Shown here: positions 1-33,954 of the stretch, piece after piece
How the letters are laid out: every line of letters begins with the position of its first letter
Numbering within the stretch: position 1 is the first letter of the stretch
Assembly: GCF_019203185.1 (NCBI RefSeq)
Contig: NZ_CP078093.1
Coordinates: 2,081,058-2,145,057 of the forward strand
DNA: 64,000 nucleotides
Source: Crassaminicella indica
GTDB taxonomy: Bacteria > Bacillota > Clostridia > Peptostreptococcales > Thermotaleaceae
Direction of reading: 5' to 3'
Translations under genes and position numbers: made by a program
The notes under the pieces: generated by a model
What the model saw: only the letters and a program-made list of their open reading frames with translations
Told to the model about the DNA's origin: nothing
Database searches by the model: none

Positions 1-117
1 ACACTTGAGGATTCCTGTTATAAAGATCAATATGAATTGTTAGGGATAAAAATGGCTAAGCTTAGTCTACAAAAAGGCGGAGACGAGATTTTAAAAAATA
101 TTGAGGCAGGTGATTAG
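1..117 (+). CDS. hemC: Hydroxymethylbilane synthase (porphobilinogen deaminase), C-terminal end
   Basis: Only the last 38 codons are in the window, read in frame 1 and ending in TAG at 115-117. The tail contains GGDEILKNI, which resembles the usual C-terminus of porphobilinogen deaminases. The gene lies directly before the uroporphyrinogen III synthase fusion and hemB, the normal hem operon order. The enzyme polymerises four porphobilinogens into hydroxymethylbilane in the cytoplasm. The identification rests mainly on context, because the dipyrromethane-binding cysteine region lies outside the window. Confidence 0.75.
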   Translation, partial: TLEDSCYKDQYELLGIKMAKLSLQKGGDEILKNIEAGD

Positions 118-119
118 AT

Positions 120-1637
120 GTGAAGGTAGGAAAAGTATTTTTGATAGGAGCAGGCCCTGGAGATTATAAGCTGATTACCCTAAAAGGGATAGAATGTATA
201 AAAAATGCTGATGTTGTATTATATGATCGATTGGCAAGCTCTAAGTTATTAAAGTTTGCAAGAGAAGATGTTGAATTGATTTATGTTGGAAAAGCTCCGA
301 ACAACCATGCTTATACACAGAAAGAGATCAATGCATTACTTGTAAAAAAAGCTTTGGAAGGAAAAAATGTTGCTAGATTAAAGGGAGGAGATCCATTTGT
401 TTTTGGTAGAGGTGGAGAAGAAGCAAAAGAATTAAAAGAAAATGGAATCAGCTTTGAAATAGTTCCCGGTATTACTTCAGCTATATCTGTACCAGCTTAT
501 GCAGGAATACCTGTAACTCATAGAAATGTAAGTTCTTCCTTTCATGTTATTACTGGAAATGAAGATCCAACAAAAGAAGAAAAGGCTGTTGATTATGAAG
601 CTTTAGCAAAATTAGAAGGAACACTTATATTCTTAATGGGTGTAAAGAATATAGAAAAAATTTGTCAAAGTCTTATAAAATACGGACAAAGTCCGAGCAG
701 ACCAGTAGCTGTGATTATGAAGGGAACTACTACCGAGCATAAAATGATTAAAGGAACTCTTAATAATATTCATGAAAAGGTAATAGAAAATGGATTAAAA
801 AATCCATCTATTATTATTGTAGGAGAAGTAGTGAATTTATCTGACGTATTAAGATGGTATGAGGATAAGCCATTATTTGGGAAAAAAGTTTTAGTTACAC
901 GGACAAGACAGCAAGCAAGTTATTTATCTAAAAAGCTTGAAGCTTTGGGTGCAAAGGCTGTAGAGTTTCCGACTATAAAAATTGAGCATCCAGAGTGCTT
1001 TGATGAAATCGATAAAGCCATAAAAGCAGTTGAGAAATACAAATGGATTATATTTACTAGTGTTAATGGTGTAACTGCATTTTTTGATCGAATGAAAAAT
1101 TTAAAAATAGATATAAGAAAGCTTCTTGGTGCAAAGCTTGTAGCAATAGGACCAGCTACTGCGAAAGCTTTAGAGGATAAAGGGTTTATTATTGAATATA
1201 TACCAGAAGAATATAGAGCAGAAGCTATTATTGATGGATTAAAAGATAAAATTAAAGAAGGAGAGCATATTCTTTTACCGAGAGCAGATATTGCTAGAGA
1301 AATTTTAATTGAAGAATTAAAAAAATTAGGGGCTATTGTAGATAATATACATATTTATCGTACGGTTATTCCTAAAAATGATCAAGATAAGCTGATTAGT
1401 ATATTAAAAGATGAAAATATCGATGTTATTACATTTACGAGTTCTTCTACTGTTAAAAACTTTATGAATATTTTAGGAGAGAACAATAAAATGCTGTTAA
1501 AAGGAAAAAGAATAGCTTCTATTGGACCTATTACTGAAAAAACTGCAAGAAAACATGGATTAGAGGTTGATATACAGGCAAAAGAATTTACAATAGATGG
1601 TCTTGTTAAAGCTATTAATAATTATTATAACAGTTAG
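120..1637 (+). CDS. cobA-hemD: Uroporphyrinogen-III C-methyltransferase / uroporphyrinogen-III synthase fusion
   Basis: This 505-residue protein joins two successive enzymes of siroheme/cobalamin synthesis. Residues about 1-245 are an SAM-dependent SUMT domain, with GAGPGD at about 10-15, GGDPFVFGRGGEE at about 89-101 and VPGITSAIS near 115. Residues about 252-505 are a HemD domain that cyclises hydroxymethylbilane, beginning at GKKVLVTRTR. The start is a GTG placed two bases after the hemC stop, so translation is probably coupled; no strong ribosome binding site is visible. Fusion of the two activities is common in clostridia. The SUMT half directs part of the uroporphyrinogen toward siroheme or vitamin B12. 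Confidence 0.93.
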   Translation: MKVGKVFLIGAGPGDYKLITLKGIECIKNADVVLYDRLASSKLLKFAREDVELIYVGKAPNNHAYTQKEINALLVKKALEGKNVARLKGGDPFVFGRGGEEAKELKENGISFEIVPGITSAISVPAYAGIPVTHRNVSSSFHVITGNEDPTKEEKAVDYEALAKLEGTLIFLMGVKNIEKICQSLIKYGQSPSRPVAVIMKGTTTEHKMIKGTLNNIHEKVIENGLKNPSIIIVGEVVNLSDVLRWYEDKPLFGKKVLVTRTRQQASYLSKKLEALGAKAVEFPTIKIEHPECFDEIDKAIKAVEKYKWIIFTSVNGVTAFFDRMKNLKIDIRKLLGAKLVAIGPATAKALEDKGFIIEYIPEEYRAEAIIDGLKDKIKEGEHILLPRADIAREILIEELKKLGAIVDNIHIYRTVIPKNDQDKLISILKDENIDVITFTSSSTVKNFMNILGENNKMLLKGKRIASIGPITEKTARKHGLEVDIQAKEFTIDGLVKAINNYYNS

Positions 1638-13482: not shown

Positions 13483-13534
13483 TTGGTGGTTGTATAAAAG
13501 TATTAAAAGCTATAAACATATAGGAGGGAAAAAA

Positions 13535-14935: not shown

Positions 14936-14972
14936 TAAGTTGAGATTTTGGGAAGAGAAAGGATGGATAAGA

Positions 14973-16541
14973 ATGAAAAGGATCAATAGAAACTACAAAG
15001 TAAGAAACTTTCACCAAGCAAAATGGGATGAACCGATTATATTTGAATTGAGCAAAAAGGGAGAAAGAGGAGTTTTAGTTCCAAAGGCTGAAGATGAAAT
15101 TGTAGATTTGGTTGGAGATGGGATTTCAAAGCTTCCTAAAAATATGATGAGAAAGGAAGCTCCTAATTTGCCAGAAATATCTCAACCAAGAGTGTTAAGA
15201 CATTATATGCGCTTGTCTCAAATGACACTAGGTGCAGATGTAAATATAGAAATTGGGCAAGGAACTTGTACTGTAAAATATAGTCCAAAAGTAAATGAGC
15301 AATTAGCAAGAATGCCTGAAATGACAGAAATACACCCACTTCAACATGAAAGTACTGTTCAAGGTATTTTAGAAATTATGTATAAAACAGATCTTTTAAT
15401 GCGAGAAATTTCTGGTATGGATCGTTTTACATTCCAGCCGGGTGGAGGAAGTCAGGCTATTATGACTATGGCATCCGTAGTGAGAGCTTATCATCAAGCT
15501 AATGGGTGCGAAGATAAGAAAGATGAAATCATTACAACTCTTTATTCGCATCCATCAGATGCAGCAGCTCCAGCATTGATGGGATATAAAATTATTTATA
15601 TTCATCCAGATGAAAATGGGTATCCAGATTTTGAAGCTTTTAAAGCAGCCGTATCTGAAAGAACAGCAGCATTTTTTGTTGCAAATCCAGAAGATACTGG
15701 AGTATATAATACTAGGATACAGGAATTTACATCTCTTGTACATGAAAATGGAGGGCTTTGCTGCTATGATCAAGCAAATGCAAATGGCTTACTTGGTGTC
15801 ACAAGAGCAAGAGAAGCAGGCTTTGATATGTGTTTTTTCAACTTACATAAAACATTCTCAACACCTCATGGTTGCGGTGGACCTGCAACTGGAGCTATGG
15901 GAGTAACAAAAGAATTAGAAAAATTTATGCCAGCTCCACTAATAGATTTTGATGGAGAAAAATATTTTTTAAATTATGACATTACAAATAATTCATATGC
16001 TGTAGGGAAGGTTAGATTATTTAATGGTGTAGCACCTGTTGTGATGAAAGCTTATGCATGGATTATGAGCATGGGTCCAGAGGGATTGTATGAGGTTGCT
16101 AAAATAGCAGTGCTAAATAATAATTATTTATTTAAAAAGCTCATGGAGTTAGATTGTGTAGATGCACCATACATTAGAGGAAAACAACGCATAGAGCAAG
16201 TTAGATATACAATAGAAAAATTAACTAAAGATACGGGTATTAAGACGGAAGATGTACAAAGAAGGATGATGGATTTTGGTATGCACTATTGGACTAGTCA
16301 CCATCCATACTATGTTCCAGAGCCAATGACATTAGAGCCTACCGAAACCCCATCAAAAGAAGATTTAGATGAATATATTGCGACTCTTGAATATATATTT
16401 AAAGAAGCTTATGAAACACCAGAAAAATTCAAAAATGCACCATATTGTAGCTCGTGTCATAGAGTTGATGAATCATATATGGATGATCCAAATAAATGGG
16501 CAATAACTTGGAGGAGTTATCTTAAAAAATCTACTGTTTAA
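14973..16541 (+). CDS. gcvPB: Glycine dehydrogenase (decarboxylating) subunit 2
   Basis: The C-terminal, PLP-carrying half of the split P-protein, 522 residues from ATG 14973; an upstream in-frame TTG at 14940 lacks a proper ribosome binding site. The cofactor lysine lies in FFNLHKTFSTPHGCGG (about 287-302), and GAMGVTKELEKFMP follows. The C-terminus has FKNAPYCSSCHRVDE. It forms the heterotetramer with GcvPA. The operon ends at a terminator 15 bases after the stop. In a clostridium carrying glycine reductase, this enzyme supplies the oxidative half of glycine fermentation. Confidence 0.94.
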   Translation: MKRINRNYKVRNFHQAKWDEPIIFELSKKGERGVLVPKAEDEIVDLVGDGISKLPKNMMRKEAPNLPEISQPRVLRHYMRLSQMTLGADVNIEIGQGTCTVKYSPKVNEQLARMPEMTEIHPLQHESTVQGILEIMYKTDLLMREISGMDRFTFQPGGGSQAIMTMASVVRAYHQANGCEDKKDEIITTLYSHPSDAAAPALMGYKIIYIHPDENGYPDFEAFKAAVSERTAAFFVANPEDTGVYNTRIQEFTSLVHENGGLCCYDQANANGLLGVTRAREAGFDMCFFNLHKTFSTPHGCGGPATGAMGVTKELEKFMPAPLIDFDGEKYFLNYDITNNSYAVGKVRLFNGVAPVVMKAYAWIMSMGPEGLYEVAKIAVLNNNYLFKKLMELDCVDAPYIRGKQRIEQVRYTIEKLTKDTGIKTEDVQRRMMDFGMHYWTSHHPYYVPEPMTLEPTETPSKEDLDEYIATLEYIFKEAYETPEKFKNAPYCSSCHRVDESYMDDPNKWAITWRSYLKKSTV

Positions 16542-20818: not shown

Positions 20819-20875
20819 GAATATATAGATAATTCTAATGATTGTTTGAAATGTATAAAAATATTCTGGTTGAAA

Positions 20876-21052
20876 AATGCGGGAGAGAATCCTAATTGGG
20901 TCGCCGAAGGGACAAGCAAAACGATATTGCCTATCTTTTTGTGAAATTCTCAGGCAAAAGGACCGTATTTGGACAGAACTCTGGAAAGCTTTTTAAAAGC
21001 ACCGAAGGAGCAATTCTATCTATTAGAAGAAACTCTCAGGTTCAAGACAGAG
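20876..21052 (+). ncRNA. Tandem glycine riboswitch (gcvT type)
   Basis: Two consecutive aptamers are visible. The first (about 20878-20968) has GTCGCCGAAGGGACAAGC and AATTCTCAGGCAAAAGGAC. The second (about 20970-21052) has AGCACCGAAGGAGCAA and AACTCTCAGGTTCAAGACAG. Both show the conserved GCCGAAGG-like and CTCAGG core segments of glycine aptamers. The tandem form binds two glycines. It precedes a terminator hairpin and the grd operon, so high glycine most likely turns on glycine reductase expression. No protein gene is called inside it. Confidence 0.95.
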
Positions 21053-21091: not shown

Positions 21092-21143
21092 CATAAGAAC
21101 AAAAAACGTTTTCCTAGCTGTATAAAAAGTGGAGTGAATGAAT

Positions 21144-21533
21144 ATGAAAAAAGTTCTAATTACAAATAATTTGAAAGTTTTTGAAGAAAATAAAGAAAAA
21201 ATGGATATAATTTATTCAAAAGATTATACATATCTTGATGTTCTTATAATTACGAGAAACAAGATACATGAGGGATATAGATTGCTTACTCACCCTCTCT
21301 CAGGAAGCGTTAAGCCTAATGAGACTCCTTTTAAATCAGTCATTATGACAAAGAAAAAAAATGAGCTTCATATTAAATCACTTGAAATAATTGAAGAAAG
21401 TATTCAGACGGCAGAGAAGTTTATAAAAGGGAAGAAAATACCTCTTTGGACAGAAAAAATATTAGAGGATTTTAAACTTATTGACTATTGTCTTATAAAG
21501 AGTGCAATAGAAAGTATGGATCAATTTTTTTGA
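21144..21533 (+). CDS. grdX: GrdX family protein
   Basis: A protein of 129 residues found at the head of glycine reductase operons; its function is not known. It carries the family segments VLIITRNKIHEGYRLLTHPL and GSVKPNETPFKSV near the middle. It is soluble, with no signal or membrane segment. ATG 21144 is preferred to ATG 21138 because the GGAG at 21131 is better spaced. It is the first gene after the glycine riboswitch, 31 bases before trxB. Confidence 0.88.
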   Translation: MKKVLITNNLKVFEENKEKMDIIYSKDYTYLDVLIITRNKIHEGYRLLTHPLSGSVKPNETPFKSVIMTKKKNELHIKSLEIIEESIQTAEKFIKGKKIPLWTEKILEDFKLIDYCLIKSAIESMDQFF

Positions 21534-21564: not shown

Positions 21565-22506
21565 ATGGAAAAACTATATGACGTAATCATAATAGGAGCA
21601 GGGCCTGCTGGACTTGCAGCAGGTCTATATGCAGCAAGAGCGAAAATGAAAACATTGATTTTAGAAAAGGATAAAACAGGAGGTCAGATTGTTACGACAA
21701 ATGAAGTAGCAAATTATCCAGGTTCTATTCAAAATGCTACAGGGCCAAGCCTTATTGCAAGGATGGTAGAACAGGCAGAGGAATTTGGTGCAGAAAGAAA
21801 GAAGGATACAGTAATAGATGTTGATTTTACTGAAAAAGTAAAGGTAATAAAGGGAGAGAAGGAAGTATATAAGTCTAAGACAGTAATAATTGCAAGTGGT
21901 GCTACACCAAAACAAATTGGTTGTCCAGGAGAAAAGGAATTAATAGGAAAAGGAGTATCCTATTGTGCAACTTGTGATGCAGACTTTTTTACAGGTTTAG
22001 AAGTATTTGTAATAGGAGGAGGAGATTCTGCATTAGAAGAAGCTATGTATCTAACGAAATTTGCCAAAAAGGTTACGATTGTACATAGGAGAGATGAGTT
22101 AAGAGCTGCAAAATCAATTCAAGAGAAAGCATTTAAAAATGAAAAAATAGATTTTATGTGGGATACAGTAGTAGAAGAAATAAAAGGAGATGGAATTGTA
22201 GAAGCTATTGTATTTAAGAACAAAAAAACAGGTAAAATTACAGAATATCATGCAGATGAAAATGATGGAACATTTGGGATATTCCCGTTTGTAGGATATA
22301 AACCTCAAAGTGATGTATATAAAGGAAAAATTGAATTAACAGATGATGGATATGTTATAACAGATGCAGACATGAGAACAAGTGTAGCAGGTGTATTTGC
22401 TGCTGGAGATATTAGAGTAAAATCCTTAAGGCAGGTAGTAACTGCTACAGCAGATGGTGCAATTGCAGCTGTTGCAGCAGAAAAATATATTGAAAATCAT
22501 TATTAA
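21565..22506 (+). CDS. trxB: Thioredoxin-disulfide reductase of the glycine reductase operon
   Basis: A 313-residue FAD-dependent reductase. The FAD motif [10 protein letters not shown] is at about 12-21, the redox-active pair C134-A-T-C137 in [10 protein letters not shown], and the nucleotide-binding [10 protein letters not shown] at about 152-161. The C-terminal FAD motif is [11 protein letters not shown]. It passes electrons to the thioredoxin encoded next, which in turn reduces the glycine reductase selenoprotein. The ribosome binding site is AAGGAGG. Confidence 0.95.
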
Positions 22507-22526: not shown

Positions 22527-22847
22527 ATGTTAGCACTTGATAAAAATACTTTTCAAAAAGAAGTTTTAGAGGCATCTGGATATGTGCTTGTGGATTATTG
22601 GAGTGATGGCTGTGAGCCATGCAAAGCATTAATGCCAGATATAGAAGAGCTTGCAGCTGAATATGAAGGAAGAGTAAAATTTGCAAAATTAAATACTATG
22701 AAAGCAAGAAGGCTTGCTATATCACAAAGAGTATTAGGACTTCCAACAATTGCATTATACAAAGATGGTGAAAAAGTAGATGAAGTGACAAAGGAAGCTG
22801 CAACAAAAGCTAATATTCTTGCTATGCTTCAAAAACATGTAGGATAG
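22527..22847 (+). CDS. trxA: Thioredoxin (glycine-reductase type, CEPC active site)
   Basis: A 106-residue thioredoxin fold protein with active-site cysteines 29 and 32 in DGCEPCKAL instead of the usual WCGPC. Such variant thioredoxins are typical of grd operons and are the electron donor that re-reduces oxidised selenoprotein A. It retains the cis-proline region [12 protein letters not shown]. It lies 20 bases after trxB with the site GGGGGAGGAA. Confidence 0.94.
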
Positions 22848-22880: not shown

Positions 22881-22911
22881 TGTGGGTAAAATATAAAGGG
22901 AGGTGAATGAT

Positions 22912-24198
22912 GTGCGCCTAGAATTGGGGAAAATTAATATTAGCGATGTTCAATTTGGTGATATGACCAAAGTAGAAAATGGAACATTATATGTAAATAA
23001 GGAAGAAATCATCAACATTATCATGGAAGATGATCATATCAAAAGCGCACAGGTAGAACTTGCCAAGCCAGGGGAAGCAACTAGAATAACTCCTGTAAAG
23101 GATGTTATTGAGCCAAGAGTAAAAGTTGAAGGGCAAGGTGGCATATTTCCTGGAGTAATAAATAAAGTTACTACTGTAGGTTCAGGCCGCACGCATGTAT
23201 TAAAGGGAGCTGCAGTTGTTACTTGCGGCAAAATTGTTGGATTTCAGGAAGGTATCATTGATATGAGTGGTCCTGGAGCCGAGTATACTCCATTTTCAAA
23301 GCTAAACAATATTTGTTTAGTAATTGAACCAATAGATGGTTTAAAACAACATGAATATGAAGCTGCTGTAAGAATGGCAGGATTAAAAGTAGCTAGCTTT
23401 ATTGGTAAAGCTGGTAGAGAATTGGTACCAGATGAAGTAGAAGTTTATGAAACAAAACCATTATTTGAGAGTGTCAAAGAGTATCCTGATTTACCAAAAG
23501 TAGCATATGTATACATGCTTCAAACACAAGGGTTGCTTCATGATACTTATGTTTATGGAGTAGATGCAAAAAAAATTGTTCCTACAATTCTTTATCCAAC
23601 AGAGATAATGGATGGAGCAATACTTAGTGGTAATTGTGTATCTGCTTGTGATAAAAATACAACTTATCATCATCAAAATAATCCAATTATTCATGACTTA
23701 TATGAAAGACATGGTAAGGATATAAATTTTGTAGGAGTAATTATTACAAATGAAAATGTATATCTTGCAGATAAAGAAAGATCATCAAATTGGACTGCTA
23801 AGCTTTGCAAATATTTAGGTCTTGAGGGAGTAATTGTATCTCAAGAGGGCTTTGGAAATCCAGACACAGATCTTATTATGAATTGCAAGAAAATAGAAGA
23901 CGAAGGTGTAAAAACTGTAATTGTAACAGATGAATATGCAGGTCGTGATGGGGCATCTCAATCTCTTGCAGATGCAGATCCAAAAGCAGATGCTGTAGTA
24001 ACAGGTGGAAATGCAAATGAAATCATTATTCTTCCACCGATGAAGAAAATAATAGGTATGCTAGATTATGTTGATAAAATTGCTGGAGGATTTGATGGCA
24101 GTTTAAGACATGATGGAAGTATTGAAGTGGAACTTCAAGTGATTACTGGTGCAACAAATGAATTAGGATTTAATAAGTTATCTGCTACAGGCTTTTAA
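22912..24198 (+). CDS. grdE: Glycine reductase complex component B subunits alpha and beta (proprotein)
   Basis: A 428-residue proprotein of the substrate-specific component B. It has the SGNCVSACDK motif with Asn241-Cys242. In the characterised GrdE of Eubacterium acidaminophilum the proprotein is cleaved at Cys242, yielding two subunits and a carbonyl (pyruvoyl-type) group that binds the glycine amino group. GTG 22912 is chosen because AAAGGGAGGTGA precedes it at normal spacing; the GTG at 22903 is part of that site. With GrdB it forms the glycine-activating protein; grdA follows 45 bases downstream. Confidence 0.94.
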   Translation: MRLELGKINISDVQFGDMTKVENGTLYVNKEEIINIIMEDDHIKSAQVELAKPGEATRITPVKDVIEPRVKVEGQGGIFPGVINKVTTVGSGRTHVLKGAAVVTCGKIVGFQEGIIDMSGPGAEYTPFSKLNNICLVIEPIDGLKQHEYEAAVRMAGLKVASFIGKAGRELVPDEVEVYETKPLFESVKEYPDLPKVAYVYMLQTQGLLHDTYVYGVDAKKIVPTILYPTEIMDGAILSGNCVSACDKNTTYHHQNNPIIHDLYERHGKDINFVGVIITNENVYLADKERSSNWTAKLCKYLGLEGVIVSQEGFGNPDTDLIMNCKKIEDEGVKTVIVTDEYAGRDGASQSLADADPKADAVVTGGNANEIIILPPMKKIIGMLDYVDKIAGGFDGSLRHDGSIEVELQVITGATNELGFNKLSATGF

Positions 24199-24243: not shown

Positions 24244-24714
24244 ATGGGTTTATTTGAAGGTAAGAAAGTCATCATCATTGGTGACAGAGATGGGATACCA
24301 GGTCCTGCTATTGAAGAATGTTTAAAAGGCACAGGCTGTGAAGTAGTTTTTTCTGCTACAGAGTGCTTTGTCTGAACGGCAGCAGGAGCAATGGACCTAG
24401 AAAATCAAAATAGGGTTAAAAATTTAACAGAAAAGTATGGTGCAGAAAATATTATAGTAATTTTTGGAGCAGCAGAAGCAGAAGCTGCAGGATTAGCTGC
24501 TGAAACTGTAACAAATGGAGACCCTACTTTTGCAGGTTCATTAGCGGGAGTCCAGTTAGGACTTAGAACATACCATGCTGTAGAGCCAGAATTTAAAGAT
24601 GCTGTAGATCCAGAGGTGTATGAAGAGCAAATTGGTATGATGGAAATGGTATTAGATGTTGATGCAATTGTCGAAGAAATGAGATCGATGAGAGAACAAT
24701 TCTGTAAATATTAA
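24244..24714 (+). CDS. grdA: Glycine/sarcosine/betaine reductase selenoprotein A
   Basis: A 156-residue selenoprotein whose frame contains one in-frame TGA at 24373-24375, at codon 44, in the redox motif CFVU. Position 44 and the C-x-x-U arrangement are those of known GrdA proteins. Downstream the frame is intact to TAA at 24712-24714. It receives the carboxymethyl group from component B as a selenoether and hands an acetyl unit to component C, then is reduced by thioredoxin. The N-terminus [20 protein letters not shown] is typical. The start follows AAAGGATGG. Automatic callers will truncate this gene at the UGA. SelA/B/C/D must be encoded elsewhere. Confidence 0.96.
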
Positions 24715-24752
24715 AAAGAATTTCCCATTTAAAATACGAGAGGGGGGGAAAT

Positions 24753-26063
24753 ATGAGCACTATTAGAGTTGTTCATTATATAAACCAATTCTTTGCAGGT
24801 ATTGGAGGAGAAGAAAAAGCAGATATAAAACCTGAGGTAAGAGAAGGAGTTGTAGGGCCTGGAATGGCTTTAAAAGCAGCTTTTAAGGATGAAGCCGAAA
24901 TTGTTGCTACAGTTATTTGTGGTGACTCCTATTTTAATGAAAATATTGAAGAAGCAAAAGCTGTTATTATTGATATGGTGAAAAAGTATCATCCGGATAT
25001 GTTTATTGCAGGTCCAGCTTTTAATGCAGGTAGATACGGTGTAGCGTGTGGAACGATTAGTAAAGCTGTAAAAGAAGAGCTAAATATTCCTGTTGTAACA
25101 GCTATGTATCCAGAAAATCCTGGAGCAGATATGTTTAAAAAGGATATTTATATTATAGAAACAGGAAATTCTGCTGCTACAATGAGAAAAGCTATTCCAG
25201 CATTAGCAAAGCTTGCATTAAAACTTGGAAAAGGTGAAGAAGTAAAAGCGCCTAGTATTGAAGGATATATTCCGAGAGGAATAAGAAAAAATATATTTAG
25301 AGAAGAAAGAGGCTCAAAGAGAGCTGTAGATATGTTGATTAAAAAGCTTAATGGTGAAGATTATGTTACAGAATATCCGATGCCTGAGTTTGATCATGTT
25401 ACACCAGGTAAAGCTATTAAAGATATATCAAAAGCAAAATTAGCAATAGTTACTTCTGGAGGGATTGTACCGAAAGGAAATCCAGACCATATCGAATCAT
25501 CAAGTGCATCTAAATATGGCAAATATGATATAGCTGATTTTAGTGATTTAACATCTGAAACCCATGAAACAGCACATGGTGGTTATGACCCTGTTTATGC
25601 AAATGAAGATGCTGATAGAGTATTACCTGTTGATGTATTAAGGGAATTAGAAAAAGAAGGGAAAATCGGAGAACTTCATAGATACTTCTATACAACTGTA
25701 GGGAATGGTACATCTGTTGCAAATGCTAAGAAATTTGCAGAACAATATGCACAAGAATTGGTGGCAGATGGTGTAGAAGCTGTTATTCTAACATCTACCT
25801 GAGGAACTTGTACGCGTTGCGGTGCAACAATGGTAAAAGAAATAGAAAGAACAGGAATTCCTGTTGTGCATATGTGTACTGTTGTTCCTATTTCATTAAC
25901 AGTTGGAGCAAATAGAATCGTACCTACAATAGCTATTCCTCATCCGCTAGGGAATCCAGCGCTAGACCTAGAGGAAGAGAAAAAATTAAGAAAAAGATTG
26001 GTTGAAAAAGCATTAAAAGCATTAGAAACAGAAATAGAAGATCAAACTGTTTTTGAAGATTAA
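24753..26063 (+). CDS. grdB: Glycine reductase complex selenoprotein B subunit gamma
   Basis: A 436-residue selenoprotein with an in-frame TGA at 25800-25802 encoding Sec350, in the motif U350-G-T-C353-T-R-C356. This is the position and UxxCxxC pattern of known glycine-specific GrdB. The N-terminal part has VHYINQFFAGIGGEEKAD and GPAFNAGRYGVACG; the part after Sec runs MVKEIERTGIPVVHMC to a TAA at 26061-26063. It activates glycine together with GrdE. A hairpin just after the UGA may be the selenocysteine insertion element. A strong AGAGGGGGG site precedes the ATG. Confidence 0.96.
25816..25828 (+). promoter_or_regulatory. Candidate SECIS apical hairpin of grdB
   Basis: GTTGC-GGT-GCAAC, a 5-bp stem with a GGU loop, begins 14 bases after the UGA, so the loop lies about 19-21 bases downstream. 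Distance and the GU in the loop resemble bacterial SECIS elements recognised by SelB. Gram-positive SECIS elements are poorly conserved, so this is tentative. Confidence 0.5.
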
Positions 26064-26069
26064 GTCTTT

Positions 26070-26091
26070 GCCAGCTGTTGATGCAGCTGGC
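26070..26091 (+). promoter_or_regulatory. Hairpin after grdB
   Basis: GCCAGCTG-TTGATG-CAGCTGGC is a perfect 8-bp GC-rich stem, seven bases after the grdB stop, with no T-run. It probably protects or processes the grdXEAB part of the transcript. Confidence 0.55.
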
Positions 26092-26103
26092 AGCTGCTTA
26101 CTA

Positions 26104-26135
26104 TAAATGGGTGGTGAAGATCACCCATTTATTTA
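26104..26135 (+). terminator. Terminator-like hairpin between grdB and grdC
   Basis: TAAATGGGTG pairs perfectly with CACCCATTTA around an 8-base loop, then TTTAAAATTA. The weak T-tract suggests partial termination, leaving grdC and grdD at a lower level or under their own promoter. Confidence 0.55.
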
Positions 26136-26332
26136 AAATTATACAATAGTTTTAGTGATTGTATTATATTTATTAAAAGTTTTAATAAAATAGCGATCAT
26201 CATAAACATTTTTTATATCTATACAATGTATTTATGTTTGTAATATACTAAAAATAGATTATGGAATAGTCTGTAGCTGCGAGCTGCATAAGACTTGTGG
26301 CAAATTTTTTAAAATTATGTGGAGGTGGAAAA

Positions 26333-27865
26333 ATGAGTTATCCAGTAATTAAAGGTGCAGGATATGTTCTTGTACATACTCCTGATATGATCATTCATAA
26401 TGGAACAACTCAGACTACAGAAAGAGTTACAAACCCTGATTCAGAATACCTTAAAAAGCTTCCAGAGCATATTAGAAGCTATGAAGAGGTTTTAAATTAT
26501 GCTCCTAATCAAGTGTACATAGGGAATATGCATCCAGAGGAATTAAGAGAATATGCTTTGCCGTGGTGTAGTAAAGATGCTAATTGCAAGGATCGTTTTG
26601 GGAAATTTGGAGAAATTATGCCTCAGGATGAGTTCATTGCGCTTATGAAGATTGTAGATGCATTTGATCTTGTAAAAATAGAAAAGGGCTTTAATAAAAT
26701 ATTAAAAGAAAAGCTTAGGCATCATCATTTATTGAAGGATGATGTAGCAAGGCTAAAGGAAGGAGAAGAATTATCTGAAATTGAGAAGTTTATAAATGAG
26801 CAGAATGCTGAAGCTATTTATCATGAGGGAAATTTAGTTGGTTGTGTAAAAAGAGCTCATGATGTAGATGCAAATTTAACTTCACATATTCTTTTTGAAA
26901 ATTTAGTAGTAAAAGCTTCTGGTGTTCTTGCGTTTAAACATCTTGTTGATAAGAATAATCTCAATGTAGCAGATATTGACTATATTATAGAGTGTTCAGA
27001 GGAAGCTTGTGGAGATATGAATCAAAGAGGTGGAGGAAACTTTGCAAAGGCTATTGCAGAATGTTCAGGTGCTATAAATGCAACAGGTTCAGATACAAGA
27101 GGCTTTTGTGCAGCACCAACTCATGCATTGATTCAGGCAGCATCTCTTGTAAAGGCTGGAACCTATGAGAATGTAGTTATAGTAGCAGGAGGAGCTACAG
27201 CAAAGCTTGGAATGAATGGAAAAGACCATGTAAAAAAAGAATTGCCTATATTAGAAGATGTAGTAGGTGCATTTGCAATACTTGTTAGTAAAAATGACGG
27301 TATAAATCCAATCATTAGAACGGATTTAGTAGGAAGACATACAGTAGGTACAGGTTCATCTCCACAAGCAGTAATCACTTCATTAGTTACAGCACCTCTT
27401 GATAAGGGAGGACTAAAGATTACAGATATTGATAAATATTCTGTTGAAATGCAGAATCCAGATATTACAAAACCAGCAGGAGCAGGAGACGTGCCAGAAG
27501 CAAACTACAAAATGATTGGTGCTTTAGGAGTTAAAAGAAAAGAATTAGATAGAAAAGAGCTTCTAAATTTCGTGAAAGAACATGGTATGCCTGGTTGGGC
27601 ACCAACACAAGGACATATTCCGTCAGGAGTTCCTTATATAGGCTTTGCTAAGGAGGATTTAACAGAAGGTAAATTAAATAGAGTGATGATTATAGGAAAG
27701 GGAAGCTTATTTTTAGGGCGTATGACAAACCTGTTTGATGGTGTATCTGTAGTTATTGAAAGAAATTCAGGAGTAGAAGAAACAGTAGGGGTATCAAAAG
27801 AAGAGATAAAAAATATGATAGCGGAGGCTATGAAAGATTTCGCATCACATCTACTAAAGGAATAG
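26333..27865 (+). CDS. grdC: Glycine/sarcosine/betaine reductase component C subunit beta
   Basis: A 510-residue ketoacyl-synthase-fold (thiolase-like) subunit of component C, which releases acetyl phosphate from the GrdA-bound acetyl thioester. It has the N-terminal YPVIKGAGYVLVHTPDM and a conserved central region IIECSEEACGDMNQRGGGNF with the reactive cysteine area NATGSDTRGFCAAPTH. The TTG at 26297 is rejected in favour of ATG 26333, which follows GGAGGTGG. It is separated from grdB by 269 bases with hairpins and lies two bases upstream of the earliest grdD start. Confidence 0.95.
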   Translation: MSYPVIKGAGYVLVHTPDMIIHNGTTQTTERVTNPDSEYLKKLPEHIRSYEEVLNYAPNQVYIGNMHPEELREYALPWCSKDANCKDRFGKFGEIMPQDEFIALMKIVDAFDLVKIEKGFNKILKEKLRHHHLLKDDVARLKEGEELSEIEKFINEQNAEAIYHEGNLVGCVKRAHDVDANLTSHILFENLVVKASGVLAFKHLVDKNNLNVADIDYIIECSEEACGDMNQRGGGNFAKAIAECSGAINATGSDTRGFCAAPTHALIQAASLVKAGTYENVVIVAGGATAKLGMNGKDHVKKELPILEDVVGAFAILVSKNDGINPIIRTDLVGRHTVGTGSSPQAVITSLVTAPLDKGGLKITDIDKYSVEMQNPDITKPAGAGDVPEANYKMIGALGVKRKELDRKELLNFVKEHGMPGWAPTQGHIPSGVPYIGFAKEDLTEGKLNRVMIIGKGSLFLGRMTNLFDGVSVVIERNSGVEETVGVSKEEIKNMIAEAMKDFASHLLKE

Positions 27866-27876
27866 GGGTGATGATT

Positions 27877-29064
27877 ATGGGACAAAAAAGAGCGGTGAAA
27901 CAAATAATAGGAAAAACCTTTATAGAAATTGCTGATGCTATAAAAAGTGGCGAATTTGGAGAAAAAATAAGGATAGGCCTTACAATATTAGGAAGTGAGC
28001 ATGGCACAGAAAATTTAGTAAAGGGTGCTGAAATAGCAGCAAAAAAAGGAGAAAACTTTGATATTGTTCTTATTGGACCAAAGGTGGATACATATTTAGA
28101 AATTGTAGAAGTAGAATCAGAGAAGGATATGCATAAAAAAATGGAGGAATTATTAGATAGTGGATACATAAAAGCATGTGTAACTATGCACTACAGCTTT
28201 CCAGTTGGTGTGTCAACAGTAGGAAGAGTAATCACGCCAGGGTATGGAAAAGAAATGTTTATAGGAACAACAACAGGAACATCATCAGTAAATAGAACAG
28301 AGGCAATGGTAAAAAATGCATTGTATGGAATAATTACAGCAAAAGCGATGGGGATAGAAAATCCAACAGTAGGAATATTAAATGTAGATGGAGCAAGACA
28401 GGTAGAAAGAGCATTAAAGGAACTAAGAGATAATGGATATAATATTAACTTTGCAGAATCCATGCGTTCAGATGGCGGAGCCATAATGAGAGGAAATGAT
28501 CTTCTTGCAGGAACAGCAGATGTGATGGTAATAGATACGCTTACAGGAAATATTATGATGAAAGTATTTTCATCATTCACAACGGGAGGAAGCTATGAAG
28601 GCTTAGGATATGGATATGGTCCGGGTGTAGGAGAAGATTATGATAAAATCATTCTTATCCTATCAAGAGCATCAGGAATACCAGTAGTATCAAATGCCCT
28701 TAGCTATGCGGCAAAGGTAACAAAAGGAAAAATACTAGAAATAGCAAAGGAAGAATTTGAAAAAGCAAAGAAAGCAAAGCTTGATGAAATATTAAAGCAT
28801 TTAAGAAAAGACTATAAAAAAGAAACAGAAAGCGAAGAAGGAGTAGTTGCACCTTCTAAGGAAGTAGTAACAGGCTCTATATCTGGAATAGATATAATGG
28901 ATTTAGAAGCTGCTGTAAAGGTGCTATGGAAAACAGGAATTTATGCAGAAAGTGGAATGGGGTGTACAGGACCAATTGTTCTTGTAAATGAAGAAAGAAT
29001 AGATATTGCAACAGAAGTGCTAGCAAAAGCTGGTTTTATTGAAAAGGAAAGAGATATTTGTTAG
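27877..29064 (+). CDS. grdD: Glycine/sarcosine/betaine reductase component C subunit alpha
   Basis: A 395-residue PlsX-like (phosphate acetyltransferase-related) subunit that, with GrdC, forms acetyl phosphate in the last step of glycine reduction, allowing ATP synthesis by acetate kinase. Features are RIGLTILGSEHGTENLVKGA near the N-terminus, FIGTTTGTSSVNRTEAMV, and a C-terminal AESGMGCTGPIV. Among GTG 27868, ATG 27871 and ATG 27877, the last is best placed after GGGGTG. It is the last gene of the glycine reductase cluster; no clear terminator was found after it. Confidence 0.93.
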   Translation: MGQKRAVKQIIGKTFIEIADAIKSGEFGEKIRIGLTILGSEHGTENLVKGAEIAAKKGENFDIVLIGPKVDTYLEIVEVESEKDMHKKMEELLDSGYIKACVTMHYSFPVGVSTVGRVITPGYGKEMFIGTTTGTSSVNRTEAMVKNALYGIITAKAMGIENPTVGILNVDGARQVERALKELRDNGYNINFAESMRSDGGAIMRGNDLLAGTADVMVIDTLTGNIMMKVFSSFTTGGSYEGLGYGYGPGVGEDYDKIILILSRASGIPVVSNALSYAAKVTKGKILEIAKEEFEKAKKAKLDEILKHLRKDYKKETESEEGVVAPSKEVVTGSISGIDIMDLEAAVKVLWKTGIYAESGMGCTGPIVLVNEERIDIATEVLAKAGFIEKERDIC

Positions 29065-29250
29065 AAGTTTAAGTATAATCTTGATAATAAAATGGAAATA
29101 TAAATATGAAAAGAAACTGTAAATATTTAATTTTATTTACCATTAAAAAATTCAAAAAATATGGTGTTATGATAAAGGAATTTTGAATATTTTAGCGAAT
29201 ACATAATATTATTCTTTTTGTGGGAAATCAAAATAGAGGAGGAATTCAAA

Positions 29251-30270
29251 ATGTTTAAAAAGGGATTAGCAATTTTATTGACAGTAATACTTGTTGCTGG
29301 ATTACTAGCAGGTTGTGGACAAAAAACACCAGAGCAAGCGGAAAAAACAAAATTAAAAATTGCTATGGTAACAGATGTAGGTGGAGTAAATGATCAATCG
29401 TTCAATCAATCAGCTTGGGAAGGCTTAAAAAGAGCTGAAGATGAATTAGGAATTAAAGTTTCTTATAAAGAATCTAGACAAGATGCTGACTACGGTCCAA
29501 ACATGGAATCTTTATTAGATGAAGAGAATGATTTAATCTGGGGTATAGGATATAAAATGGGTAATTTAGTAAAAGAAGAAGCTGAAAAAAATCCTGAGCA
29601 AAAATATGCTATTGTTGACTATGCTTATGAAAAAACACCAGAAAATTTAGTAGGTGTAGTATTTAAAGCTGAGCAATCATCATTCCTTGTAGGTTATATA
29701 GCAGGGAAAATGACAAAAACTGGAAAAGTTGGATTTGTTGGTGGAGTTAAAGGAAATGTTATTGACGGATTTGAATATGGATACAGAGCAGGTGTAAAAA
29801 AAGCAAACAAAGATGTAAAAGTTTTAGTTCAATATGCTGATTCTTTTACAGATGCAGCTAAAGGTAAAGCAATTGCTAATCAAATGTATAAAGATGGCGC
29901 AGATATTGTATTCCATGCTGCTGGTGGTGTTGGTGATGGTATTATAGAAGCTGCTAAGGAACAAAATAAATTTGCAATTGGTGTAGATAGAGATCAAAGT
30001 AATCTAGCACCTGAAAACGTACTTACATCAGCAATGAAGCATGTAGATACTGCAGTTTTTGATATAGCAAAGAGTTTAAAAGAAGGAAAATTCCCAGGAG
30101 GAACAACAGTTGTTTATGGACTTAAAGAGGGTGGTGTAGATATTGCTCCAACTTCTAACAAGCATGTACCAGCTGATATTTTGAAAGAAGTAGAAGATCT
30201 AAAGCAACAAATTATAGATGGAAAAATTGTAGTTCCTTATAATGAAAAAACTTTTAGTGAATTTAAATAA
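29251..30270 (+). CDS. BMP family ABC transporter substrate-binding lipoprotein (nucleoside type)
   Basis: A 339-residue lipoprotein. The N-terminus has lysines, a hydrophobic segment and the lipobox LLAGC, so Cys at about 22 is lipidated. The mature part is a BmpA/Med-type periplasmic-binding fold with KIAMVTDVGGVNDQSFNQSA and GKVGFVGGVKGNVIDGFEYG. Such proteins bind purine nucleosides for the ATPase and permeases encoded next. ATG 29251 follows GAGGAGGAATT; a TTG at 29218 is rejected. No purine riboswitch was found upstream. Confidence 0.92.
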   Translation: MFKKGLAILLTVILVAGLLAGCGQKTPEQAEKTKLKIAMVTDVGGVNDQSFNQSAWEGLKRAEDELGIKVSYKESRQDADYGPNMESLLDEENDLIWGIGYKMGNLVKEEAEKNPEQKYAIVDYAYEKTPENLVGVVFKAEQSSFLVGYIAGKMTKTGKVGFVGGVKGNVIDGFEYGYRAGVKKANKDVKVLVQYADSFTDAAKGKAIANQMYKDGADIVFHAAGGVGDGIIEAAKEQNKFAIGVDRDQSNLAPENVLTSAMKHVDTAVFDIAKSLKEGKFPGGTTVVYGLKEGGVDIAPTSNKHVPADILKEVEDLKQQIIDGKIVVPYNEKTFSEFK

Positions 30271-30302
30271 AAAAAGTGATATAATAATATAAAATGAAAA
30301 TC

Positions 30303-30333
30303 AAGTAGCTCAGGCAAATAGTCTGGGCTGCTT
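30303..30333 (+). promoter_or_regulatory. Hairpin between the BMP lipoprotein and ATPase genes
   Basis: AAGTAGCTCAG pairs with CTGGGCTGCTT (11 bp with G-U pairs) around a 9-base loop, without a T-run. It may stabilise the lipoprotein mRNA and so give more binding protein than transporter, a frequent arrangement in ABC importer operons. Confidence 0.55.
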
Positions 30334-30362
30334 CGGTATTAAGTGATTAGGAGGTTATTCTA

Positions 30363-31904
30363 TTGAATCACATCAAGTTTGATGAAAAAGCTGTGGAAAT
30401 GAAAAATATCACAAAGGTTTTTGGTAATTTCACTGCAAACGATAACATTAATTTGACGGTTCATAAAGGGGAAGTACATGCTTTATTAGGAGAAAATGGA
30501 GCAGGAAAAACTACGCTTATGAACATTTTGTATGGTCTATATCAGCCTACCTTTGGTGAAATAAGAATCAATGGGAAAACGGTAACAATGACAGATCCGA
30601 ATGTAGCTATTCAACATGGAATAGGTATGGTACACCAGCATTTTATGCTTGTGGAGCCTTTTACAGTAGCAGAGAATATCATATTGGGAAAGGAAACGAC
30701 TACTAGCTTTGGAAAGCTGGATATTAAGGAAGCGGTTTCACATGTGGAAGAATTGTCTAAAAAATATGGTCTTTATGTTGATCCTTATGCGAAAATAGAG
30801 GATATTACTGTAGGGATGCAACAAAGAGTAGAGATTTTAAAAGCATTATATAGGGGAGCTGAAATCTTAATCTTAGATGAGCCAACAGCTGTATTAACAC
30901 CACAAGAAATTCAAGATTTAATAGATATAATTAGAAATCTTACTAAGCAGGGCAAATCTATAATTATAATTACTCATAAATTAAAAGAAATAAAACAAAT
31001 TGCTGATTATTGTACAATTATTCGTAGAGGAAAGCATATTGATACAGTAGATGTTAGTGTAACTACTAAGGAAGAACTAGCAAATAAAATGGTTGGAAGA
31101 GAAGTAAATTTTGTTGTAGAAAAAAAAGAAAGAGAAAGGGGAGACGTTGTACTAGAAATAAATAATTTAGTAGTTAAGGATAATCGTGGGATTAATGCAG
31201 TAGATGGATTGTCTCTTAAAGTACATGCTGGAGAAATTTTAGGGATAGCAGGAGTTGATGGAAATGGACAAAGTGAATTAATTGAAGGGATTACAGGACT
31301 TAGAAAGATAGAATCAGGAAAAATAATTATGCAGGGAAAGGATATTACAGGAAGGACACCAAAAGAGATTTTAGAGCATAAGATTTCAACAATTCCAGAA
31401 GATAGACAAAAAAGAGGGTTAGTATTAGATTTTAGTGTTGAGGAAAATATGATATTAGAAAATTATTACAAAGCACCTTTTGCTAAAAATGGAATTCTTC
31501 AAAAAGATAAAATAAAAAGCTTTGCAAAAAAATTAGTAGAGAGGTTTGATGTTCGTCCTCAGGATGAGACGTTAAAGGCTCGTGCTTTATCAGGTGGAAA
31601 TCAACAAAAGGTAATTATAGCAAGGGAAGTAACTAATAATCCAGAATTATTAATTGCAGCTCAACCTACTAGAGGTTTAGATGTAGGAGCTATTGAATAT
31701 GTTCATAAGGCACTTGTAGAACAAAGAGATAAAAATAAGGCTGTGTTGCTTGTATCTCTAGAATTAGATGAGATAATGAATGTATCCGATAGAATTGCAG
31801 TAATTTATGAGGGAAAAATAGTAGGGATTGTAGAAGCAAATAAAACAGATGAAAATACGCTTGGTCTCATGATGGCAGGAGGAGGTACAGGCAATGAAAA
31901 ATAA
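30363..31904 (+). CDS. Nucleoside ABC transporter ATP-binding protein (two ABC domains)
   Basis: A 513-residue protein with two tandem nucleotide-binding domains. The first has Walker A GENGAGKTT (about 42-50), signature segment VGMQQRVEIL and Walker B ILILDEPTAVL. The second has a degenerate Walker A GVDGNGQSE (about 293-301), signature LSGGNQQK and AAQPTRGLDVGA, as usual for this NupO/YufO/MglA-like group. The start is TTG, eight bases after AGGAGG. It overlaps the following permease gene by 11 bases. Confidence 0.94.
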   Translation: MNHIKFDEKAVEMKNITKVFGNFTANDNINLTVHKGEVHALLGENGAGKTTLMNILYGLYQPTFGEIRINGKTVTMTDPNVAIQHGIGMVHQHFMLVEPFTVAENIILGKETTTSFGKLDIKEAVSHVEELSKKYGLYVDPYAKIEDITVGMQQRVEILKALYRGAEILILDEPTAVLTPQEIQDLIDIIRNLTKQGKSIIIITHKLKEIKQIADYCTIIRRGKHIDTVDVSVTTKEELANKMVGREVNFVVEKKERERGDVVLEINNLVVKDNRGINAVDGLSLKVHAGEILGIAGVDGNGQSELIEGITGLRKIESGKIIMQGKDITGRTPKEILEHKISTIPEDRQKRGLVLDFSVEENMILENYYKAPFAKNGILQKDKIKSFAKKLVERFDVRPQDETLKARALSGGNQQKVIIAREVTNNPELLIAAQPTRGLDVGAIEYVHKALVEQRDKNKAVLLVSLELDEIMNVSDRIAVIYEGKIVGIVEANKTDENTLGLMMAGGGTGNEK

Positions 31905-33021
31905 AAAAAATTCATTAAAAGAAATGTTATTTAGTGGAAATTTTACGATTACATTAATATCTATTTTGTTAGGACTTGCTGTAGGAGCTATTGCTTTAAA
32001 GATAGCAGGATATAGTCCAATAGAGGCATATTCAGTAATATTAAATGGTATATTTGGAAAGCCTAAATATATTTCATATACAATTATTTATGCTACACCT
32101 CTAATTATGACAGGGCTTTCAGTAGCATTTGCTTTTAAGACAGGATTGTTCAATATTGGTGCAGAAGGACAGTTTATTGTTGGAGCTTTAGTAGCGACAT
32201 TAGTAGGTTATTTTGTGAAACTACCTATAGTGCTTCATGCTATTGTAGTATTTGCTGCGGCTATAACTGCTGCAGGTATATGGGGGGCAGTTGCAGGCTT
32301 TTTAAAGGCTAGATTTGGAGTTCATGAGGTTATTGCAACTATTATGTTAAACTGGATTGCTTTGTATTTAAATAATTATGTTATTATGCTAGAAGGTTTT
32401 AAAAGACCTAATAGTGAAGCATCTTATAAAATATGGGATACTGCAACAGTTGGAATTTTAGAGAAGTGGCGTTATACAGATGCAGGAAGAGTTTGGTTAA
32501 AAGCTCATCCAATACTGCAGAGTATTTTTAAAACACCTATAAATTTAGGAATTATTTGTGCTATTTTATTGGCTGTTTTGGTTTGGTTTATATTGAGCAA
32601 AACTACATTAGGATATGAATTAAGAGCTGTTGGTTCTAATAAATATGCTGCTGAATATGGTGGAATCAATGTAAATAAAAGTATAATTATTTCAATGAGT
32701 ATAGCTGGAGCATTAGCAGGTGCTGCAGGTGCGATGCAAGTAATGGGTATATCAAAACAGGTTTCAATTTTAGCAGCTATGGAAGGATATGGATTTGATG
32801 GAATTGCAGTTTCTTTGATTGGTAGTAATGGAGCGTTTGGATGTATTTTTGCAGGATTACTTTTTGGGGCACTAAAATATGGAGGACCTAAAATACAATC
32901 TGCTATGGGAGCACCATCAGAGATTGTAAGTATTGTAATGGGAACGATTGTATACTTTATTGCTATGCCAAAATTCATCAAGATGCTTTTAGATGCAAGA
33001 AAAAGAAAAGAGGTGAAATAG
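31894..33021 (+). CDS. Nucleoside ABC transporter permease 1
   Basis: A 375-residue BPD-transp-2 type permease with roughly nine to ten hydrophobic segments and the family regions AFKTGLFNIGAEGQFI (about 82-97) and GANGAFG-like GSNGAFGCIFAGLLFG. It pairs with the next gene's product and the double ATPase in a NupP/NupQ-type importer. The start lies inside the ATPase gene (11-base overlap), so expression is coupled. Confidence 0.93.
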   Translation: MKNKKNSLKEMLFSGNFTITLISILLGLAVGAIALKIAGYSPIEAYSVILNGIFGKPKYISYTIIYATPLIMTGLSVAFAFKTGLFNIGAEGQFIVGALVATLVGYFVKLPIVLHAIVVFAAAITAAGIWGAVAGFLKARFGVHEVIATIMLNWIALYLNNYVIMLEGFKRPNSEASYKIWDTATVGILEKWRYTDAGRVWLKAHPILQSIFKTPINLGIICAILLAVLVWFILSKTTLGYELRAVGSNKYAAEYGGINVNKSIIISMSIAGALAGAAGAMQVMGISKQVSILAAMEGYGFDGIAVSLIGSNGAFGCIFAGLLFGALKYGGPKIQSAMGAPSEIVSIVMGTIVYFIAMPKFIKMLLDARKRKEVK

Positions 33022-33954
33022 GTGATTGATAATATAGGTTTTATTCTTGGGACGACATTAATGTATTCAACGCCACTTATTTTTGCAGCTTTAGGAGGGG
33101 TTATTTCTGAAAATTCAGGAGTTGTTAATATAGGTCTTGAAGGGATGATGACTCTAGGAGCGTTGGTAGGTGCAACAGTAGGGTATTTCACAGGAAATCC
33201 ATGGTTAGGGCTACTCTGTGCAGGACTGGCAGGAGGATTATTAGCTATATTACACGCTATTGCATCTATTACATTTGGAGCAGATCAAGTAGTATCAGGG
33301 ATTGCGATTAACTTTTTAGGACCAGGAATTGCATTGTTTTTAAGTCGTATATTTTTTGAAGGTGCTACTATGACAAAGTCTATTGATTTAGATAATAAAA
33401 TCCCTAGACCTTTAGATGGAATATTTCAACAGAATTCATTCTTTGACTTGGTATTTAATCAGTATGCAACTGTATATATTGCATTGCTTTTAGTGTTTAT
33501 TGTATGGTATATGCTTTATAAGACGAAGCTAGGGCTTAGAATTAGAGCTGTAGGAGAACATCCAAAAGCAGCAGATACATTAGGAATTAATATTTATAAA
33601 ATTAGATATTTTAGTGTTATTTTGTCTGGTATATTTGCAGGCTTTGGAGGAGCGGCAATGAGTCTTGCAGTAGTTTCTAACTTTCGTCCTACATTGATTT
33701 CTGGACAAGGCTTTATTGCCCTTGCTGCTATGATTTTTGGAAAATGGAAGCCTCAAGGTGCTATGTGGGCTTGTTTATTGTTTGGTGCTGCTCAAGGTAT
33801 AGTAGTATTCTTAGGTAGTACAGCTATTTCAATATCATCACAGATTTTAGCTATGCTGCCATATATCATAACATTATTAGTTTTAATAGGTTTTGTTGGA
33901 AAGTCTGCAGGTCCTGCAGCAAATGGTGTACCATATGAAAAAGGAGAGAGATAG
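33022..33954 (+). CDS. Nucleoside ABC transporter permease 2
   Basis: A 310-residue BPD-transp-2 type permease with the conserved SENSGVVNIGLEGMMTLGA (about 28-46) and GQGFIALAAMIFGKW near 235. It starts with GTG immediately after the stop of permease 1 and ends at a terminator that overlaps its stop codon region. Together with the lipoprotein, ATPase and permease 1 it completes a nucleoside uptake system; the exact nucleoside is not readable. Confidence 0.93.
   Translation: MIDNIGFILGTTLMYSTPLIFAALGGVISENSGVVNIGLEGMMTLGALVGATVGYFTGNPWLGLLCAGLAGGLLAILHAIASITFGADQVVSGIAINFLGPGIALFLSRIFFEGATMTKSIDLDNKIPRPLDGIFQQNSFFDLVFNQYATVYIALLLVFIVWYMLYKTKLGLRIRAVGEHPKAADTLGINIYKIRYFSVILSGIFAGFGGAAMSLAVVSNFRPTLISGQGFIALAAMIFGKWKPQGAMWACLLFGAAQGIVVFLGSTAISISSQILAMLPYIITLLVLIGFVGKSAGPAANGVPYEKGER

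Follow-up and report, generated by a model that had tools for sequence, protein, structure and literature searches.

The selenocysteine codon of grdA in Crassaminicella indica and other bacteria: a probable split SECIS with a distal hairpin

Bacterial SECIS elements typically lie directly after the UGA codon. The available part of a review (PMC13188914) gives a model for them, bSECIS, with 16–37 nt from the UGA to the apical loop, a loop of 3–9 nt, a stem of 4–16 bp, G[G/U] and an energy of −7.5 kcal/mol or lower, and adds that a subset of selenoprotein genes misfits this model. According to the accessible sections of PMC12013277, atypical SECIS elements have been overlooked, and unknown mechanisms acting beyond 300 nt are possible. 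The search of Chaudhuri and Yeates, as far as the accessible text of PMC1242214 describes it, was limited to −10 to +100 nt, and two of the four known selenoproteins of Photobacterium profundum failed its SECIS criterion. We found no description of a distant or 3′ UTR SECIS in bacteria in the open-access literature, including the available text of PMC1914089, PMC10838667 and PMC1794560; subscription papers lay outside the scope of this search, so that priority is not established.

The window that we analysed is a stretch of 64,000 nt from the genome of Crassaminicella indica (a single contig of 2.76 Mb). It carries a glycine reductase operon in the order grdX-trxB-trxA-grdE-grdA-grdB-grdC-grdD, downstream of a tandem glycine riboswitch, with the following features.

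20870–21052, plus strand: tandem glycine riboswitch aptamers (RF00504; 20870–20975, 68.6 bits; 20979–21052, 47.2 bits)
21138–21533, plus strand: grdX (NF038093, 144.9 bits)
21565–22506, plus strand: trxB, thioredoxin reductase (TIGR01292, above cut-off)
22527–22847, plus strand: trxA, clostridial-type thioredoxin (NF047697, above cut-off)
22903–24198, plus strand: grdE-like protein B subunit, adjoining grdA (best model NF040793, GrdG, 720.6 bits, below its cut-off of 780)
24244–24714, plus strand: grdA, glycine reductase selenoprotein A (NF040748), the sole grdA of the genome
24373–24375, plus strand: Sec codon UGA 44 of grdA (CFVU, residues 41–44)
24753–26063, plus strand: grdB, glycine reductase selenoprotein B (TIGR01917)
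25800–25802, plus strand: Sec codon UGA 350 of grdB (U350 followed by GTCTRC)
26297–27865, plus strand: grdC (NF040746, 841.4 bits; coordinates of the listed ORF; translation may in fact begin at an internal ATG)
27868–29064, plus strand: grdD (NF040747, 605.9 bits)

Several observations concern the surroundings of the operon. Two ORFs upstream of it (13490–16541) are presumably gcvPA and gcvPB, and their position suggests that glycine cleavage is linked to glycine reduction. Genes for a BMP-type lipoprotein and an ABC transporter come after grdD (29218–33954). The grdB–grdC gap (26064–26296, ∼230 bases) contains, by visual inspection, inverted repeats bearing AGCUG motifs, which may serve as a processing site or an attenuator. 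In the nearest named relative, a Marinisporobacter metagenome-assembled genome (locus L021, 1727–6744), lipoprotein and ATPase genes likewise lie downstream of grdB; the operon beside this grdB is without most of trxB, retains only 25 residues of grdA and has neither grdC nor grdD, while one full grdA is present at another location in that genome. These gaps reflect either gene loss or an assembly fault.

The GrdA and GrdB sequences gave full-length family matches spanning an in-frame TGA (GrdA to NF040748 with 276.8 bits, cut-off 130; GrdB to TIGR01917 with 784.7 bits, cut-off 602.2); GrdB scored below the cut-offs of the sarcosine and betaine models. The original prediction had placed selenocysteine (Sec) at residue 44 of GrdA and residue 350 of GrdB, which we take to be the Sec positions of the characterised enzymes. 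Read through, 24244–24714 indeed gives a 156-aa GrdA with U44 in CFVU, and 24753–26063 a 436-aa GrdB with U350 in STUGTCTRC. Standard gene calling had been expected to truncate GrdA and split GrdB, and this is what a table-11 ORF listing (minimum 80 aa) does, yielding only the C-terminal 107 aa of the former and only the N-terminal 349 aa of the latter. A separate gene beginning at the alternative start 24391 was ruled out, since the GrdA family match runs through the TGA. The redox motifs claimed at the outset, CxxU in GrdA and UxxCxxC in GrdB, match those of glycine reductase selenoproteins in the accessible part of PMC6778437.

The TGA of grdB stands in the motif STUGTCTRCGA at all 80 loci compared (the window and 79 named relatives). 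That of grdA was found at the equivalent position in 228 of 228 genes, although the collection pattern also permitted Cys; no Cys-containing GrdA was among these 228, and the accessible part of PMC12013277 reports that some exist. The genome has selA, selB, selD and one tRNA-Sec (anticodon UCA), clustered within ∼10 kb, so that the Sec machinery, whose absence was to count against the original prediction, is complete. The redox motifs, the conservation across the TGA, the full operon and this machinery therefore support the reading of both TGA codons as Sec; as a finding it is ordinary, and there is nothing unusual in the two proteins, which resemble known GrdA and GrdB in sequence, operon, redox motifs and Sec positions. 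A PDB sequence search with GrdB gave no match, an IMG/VR scan for grdA gave two pattern matches, neither of them a relative, and among the longest further TGA-readthrough ORFs of at least 120 codons in the six frames of the window we saw, by visual inspection, no convincing case.

The selD gene itself runs through an in-frame TGA (ASGUAAK). After its UGA, a hairpin is found at canonical distance, UGGCACAA-GUU-UUGUGUCA, with the loop at +36 (offsets are counted with the U of UGA as 0). With regard to the tRNA-Sec (locus L001, 1501–1593; genome 2366698–2366790), we observed that its Rfam alignment is without one acceptor-stem position; this tRNA may therefore have an unusually short acceptor branch. 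The match had the identical length of 93 nt in 15 of 16 genomes of the family.

The signal of the grdB UGA is, by sequence and predicted structure, an ordinary SECIS hairpin directly downstream.

25803–25840, plus strand: SECIS_4, the canonical SECIS of grdB, directly after the UGA (RF01990, 55.3 bits, gathering threshold 38)

As a local hairpin directly 3′ of the UGA that Rfam recognizes as SECIS_4, this element belongs to the bSECIS class. In 80 grdB genes, codons +3 to +14 were the most synonymously constrained stretch, with a ratio of observed to expected codon entropy of 0.34 at +3 to +10.

In grdA we saw no such match. With grdA and grdB searched against Rfam at E-values up to 5, the sole SECIS match was the SECIS_4 in grdB. 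Segments of 45 and 61 nt around or after the grdA UGA of the window folded like shuffled sequences (z = 0.24 and −1.01), and no hairpin fitting the bacterial SECIS model was present 16–37 nt after this UGA. Codon entropy, compared across 70 grdA genes, showed no deep dip immediately past the UGA (0.72 at codons −2 to +5); a deep dip, 0.49, was observed at codons +58 to +65, inside a broader low from +46 to +69. This is where the window has a bSECIS-like hairpin.

24548–24564, plus strand: distal hairpin GAGUCC-AGUUA-GGACUU, loop starting 178 nt past the UGA, apical GUU

All six pairs of this hairpin or its close variants are possible in 55 of the 70 genes. Its stem of 6 bp and its AGUUA loop agree with the loop and stem rules of the bSECIS model, and the energy of the 36-nt window segment, −7.7 kcal/mol, is barely within the energy rule. 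The spacing of 178 nt is far from the 16–37 nt of the model; therefore we do not file the hairpin under bSECIS, though we read it as working like one. The same rule bears on the simplest account of the locus, that of two ordinary selenoprotein genes with canonical signals and nothing more. The two Sec codons are real and grdB does have its SECIS_4, yet no hairpin of grdA satisfies the published distance rule, and we regard this account as very improbable. Compared with SECIS_4, which is local and has the apical loop GGU, the grdA element shares the operon and the decoding machinery. That the UGA codons of grdA and grdB are signalled differently was something the original prediction could not see.

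Overlapping sense ORFs were also considered as a source of the distal constraint and rejected, since both other frames of the window contain, by visual inspection, a TAG within the stretch of the hairpin.

We collected grdA genes by a class search (48 of 391 genomes with a match) and a phylum search (109 of 398); the sample excludes the weakest or partial matches and a few full-length ones. Of the genes collected, 228 were readable, 218 with distinct DNA (loci L178 and L286 gave none). Hairpins were required to have at least 5 bp, G[GU] in the first loop positions and an energy of −5 kcal/mol or lower. Among the 218 genes, 177 had only the distal hairpin, 21 only a canonical near hairpin, four both and 16 neither; two of these 16 (L177 and L283) comprise one gap of N and one register-shifted distal form. 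The distal hairpin was situated ∼181 nt past the UGA in 181 of the 218 genes. Position bins held on average 2.2 genes; apart from the distal position, those at 27 and 120 nt held 23 and 26, and no other bin held at least 12. Among the near hairpins, UGGAUC-UGGA-GAUCCA accounted for 22 of 25.

The in-ORF distal hairpin is present in Peptoclostridium acidaminophilum DSM 3953, Enterococcus raffinosus, E. gilvus and both grdA genes of Photobacterium sp. DA100; the grdA of Acetoanaerobium noterae is without it and has a hairpin at +117 instead. These five organisms represent five of the six plasmid records, a second E. raffinosus having been left out. Experimental work on the selenoproteins of Eubacterium acidaminophilum reportedly exists. 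A hairpin of the type AGCUGC-GGUC at ∼+117, in genes with neither a near hairpin nor the GUU hairpin at +181, was observed at loci L288, L096, L147, L149, L155, L156, L160, L161, L298 and L301; this is possibly a further SECIS position. About 12 grdA genes, that of A. noterae among them, fit no class, and some (e.g. L307, L267, L274 and L278) are without any recognised element.

In the distal class, the synonymous codons that deviated most included +58 to +63 (the hairpin), +53 to +56, +7, +8 and −1. Since this class was chosen by its hairpin, hairpin figures inside it are circular; the hairpin frequency of 181 of 218 at one position is not, and two long-range helices, H1 and H2, played no part in the class definition. 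H1 joins +17..26 with +160..169, its strands being the deviant codons +7, +8 and +53 to +56. In the window the strands are as follows.

24390–24398, plus strand: H1 5′ strand AAUGGACCU, 15–23 nt past the UGA
24411–24417, plus strand: H2 5′ strand UAGGGUU
24520–24526, plus strand: H2 3′ strand GACCCUA, pairing with UAGGGUU
24534–24542, plus strand: H1 3′ strand AGGUUCAUU, pairing with AAUGGACCU

We compared the H1 duplex with synonymous shuffles that preserve the protein and the codon usage of each gene, in 125 distal-class representatives below 88% identity. Its energy was −16.0 kcal/mol against −8.7 in the shuffles (z = −25.9), and it was below the null median in 125 of 125; outside the distal class z was −2.4 (near class) and −0.7 (no-hairpin class). 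When 1275 pairs of 16-nt windows were scanned in 60 representatives, H1 ranked first (z = −18.9), and the pair 32 × 144 (z = −9.0) led to H2, +39..44 with +147..152. When a partner for the near strand was sought from +60 up to the hairpin, the best one was located at +150 to +170 in 187 of 188 distal-class genes. Single-sequence folding gave pairing probabilities above 0.5 for H1 in 124, for H2 in 60 and for the hairpin in 123 of the 125 representatives; the shuffle control gave 40, 10 and 32 of 500, and the genes of the near and both classes 3, 1 and 2 of 19. The predicted fold of the window RNA has an energy of −47.9 kcal/mol (z = −3.1) and contains the long-range stem in both the MFE and the centroid structure; the ensemble pairing probabilities in the window are 0.9999 for H1, 0.996 for H2 and 0.9999 for the distal hairpin.

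H2 was found in the same data as H1; its covariation is separate information. Across 124 representatives, the pair 42–149 showed two-sided covariation between codons (GC 53, AT 39, GT 25, AC 7; Fisher p = 1e-8, ignoring relatedness), and so did the pair 39–152, which, with four types tested, was AT in 41, AG in 10, CT in two and CG in 14 (Fisher p = 1.6e-6, likewise ignoring relatedness); in 30 genes outside the distal class we saw no H2 covariation. In a tree-based covariation test the H2 pairs ranked 20 and 29 of 21 945 and no pair passed; the null appeared to be badly calibrated and was heavy-tailed, therefore we used ranks alone. The independent-pair test of H2 could draw on only four to five supported pairs. 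RNAalifold on 65 sequences returned the hairpin and a few weak local pairs, and neither H1 nor H2. There is little room for covariation in H1 because of the coding constraint; its pairs 17, 19, 25 and 26 are broken in many genes, and in P. acidaminophilum and Photobacterium it looks weaker by visual inspection. Taken together, the structure of hairpin, H1 and H2 is strongly supported as a prediction.

These data bear on whether the distal signal could arise from codon bias or protein constraint, with no function at RNA level. Amino acids at +46 to +67 are strongly conserved, as such an explanation would have it. However, it is the choice of synonymous codons that is constrained, and this constraint is gone in genes without the distal hairpin; synonymous shuffles keeping protein and codon usage destroy the signal, and complementary strands with a similar hairpin recur in non-coding 3′ UTRs (see below). 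We consider this explanation improbable in the extreme.

The codon preceding the grdA UGA (window 24370–24372) is GTC in 105 of the 125 representatives of the distal class and in 24 of the 32 others, and this context of the UGA is, judged by codon choice, constrained. It was also observed that 24365–24380 of the window (GUCUGAAC), around the UGA, could pair in part with the 3′ arm of the distal hairpin (24549–24564), a pair, −8 × 176, which in the window-pair scan had z = −12. The complementarity may be a switch or a coincidence, the latter because most genes, whatever their class, have GTC as codon −1.

The near and distal modules have a common 5′ strand, AUGGAYCU, and each replaces the other. 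On a grdA tree built with the trait columns removed, the near state changes five times and the distal state nine times. In four well-supported independent pairs the two states were opposite in 3.4 on average and the same in 0.0, which is not significant, as the supported pairs are too few.

One could argue that an unrecognised SECIS exists directly after the grdA UGA and that the distal module is another conserved RNA element, concerned for instance with mRNA stability, grdA–grdB stoichiometry or selenium regulation. The constraint on codon −1 in all classes indicates that the surroundings of the UGA matter too, and the −8 × 176 pairing would allow an alternative structure. Nevertheless, the 45 and 61 nt around or after the UGA of the window fold like shuffles, genes with the near hairpin are mostly without the distal module, the distal loop conforms to the bSECIS rule for loops and is the same as that of the selD hairpin with its apical GUU, and the distal module pairs with the very segment from which, in the other class, the near hairpin is built. 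We think a hidden local SECIS unlikely.

A wider set of 246 distinct grdA genes with at least 60 nt behind the stop codon contained 188 genes with the distal hairpin, 21 with the near hairpin, four with both and 33 with neither. In 17 of these 33, a hairpin with a G[GU] loop was found in the non-coding stretch past the grdA stop codon, ∼370–470 nt after the UGA; the 17 were picked after the hairpins were seen, and the count omits hairpins at the start of grdB (several genes). The best partner of the near strand ended 8–12 nt before the loop in 14 of the 17; the exceptions had gaps of 19, 24 and 106 nt, the last one (L309) measured to a hairpin other than its GUU hairpin. In Petromonas (L025/L321) the near strand GCAAUGGACUUAG pairs with AUAAGUCCAUUGA and the hairpin is GAAUCUC-GUU-GGGAUUC; in Maledivibacter (L029/L322) the partner is AUAAGUCUAUUGA and the hairpin GAGUUCA-GUU-UGGACUC; in genes of the G353 family near AUGGAUUUGG pairs with CCAAAUCCAU. 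The partner strand is here free of coding constraint, and in the best cases GAC in the near strand goes with GUC in the partner and GAU with AUC. Against dinucleotide shuffles, the duplex of the near strand with the 3′ UTR had modest z values, below −2 in 10 of 33 no-hairpin genes, eight of 188 distal genes and none of 21 near genes. Two genomes, G817 and G819, each have one in-ORF and one 3′ UTR grdA paralogue.

The comparison thus shows, at the level of sequence, conservation of the hairpin, H1 and H2, their predicted folding, an anticorrelation with the near hairpin and a recurrence in 3′ UTRs. The explanation that we favour, and hold to be very probable, is that the grdA signal is a split SECIS, with a long-range stem that brings a SelB-binding hairpin up to the UGA. 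The segment 15 nt past the UGA, AAUGGACCU, would pair with AGGUUCAUU ∼136 nt further (H1), H2 would lengthen this stem, and the hairpin with the apical GUU would stand separately just behind the 3′ strand of the stem. A segment 15 nt past the UGA should be near the mRNA entry of a ribosome with the UGA in its A site. Through the stem, the GUU hairpin would come close to the ribosome waiting at this codon; there SelB, together with GTP and Sec-tRNA-Sec, would bind the hairpin like a canonical SECIS loop. Binding of the hairpin by SelB, the role of the element in driving UGA decoding and its geometry on the ribosome are what we infer from this structure.

The putative element differs from the bacterial SECIS described so far in its spacing, 178 nt in grdA and ∼370–470 nt in the 3′ UTR class compared with the published 16–37 nt, as well as in having a hairpin separate from the long-range stem, whose 5′ strand is near the UGA. 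It is like archaeal and eukaryotic SECIS elements, as the available part of PMC13188914 presents them, in acting at a distance and, for genes of the 3′ UTR class, from beyond the stop codon. There is no structural resemblance to them; the bridge to the UGA would be pairing with the UGA-proximal mRNA. More generally, it is likely that bacteria have a class of SECIS acting at a distance, in which a stem anchored ∼15 nt past the UGA delivers a GUU/GGU hairpin located 180 nt (in the gene) or ∼370–470 nt (in the 3′ UTR) away, its position having moved within a single gene family and even from one paralogue to another in the same genome.

If most of the collected grdA genes have a split SECIS, this would explain misses of SECIS searches such as those in P. 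profundum and would give a route to selenoproteins with distant signals. If true, bacterial Sec decoding would differ from archaeal and eukaryotic decoding less in SECIS position than is taught. The split SECIS would show how a SECIS could move towards the 3′ UTR, and the question of how a distantly bound SelB reaches its ribosome becomes testable.
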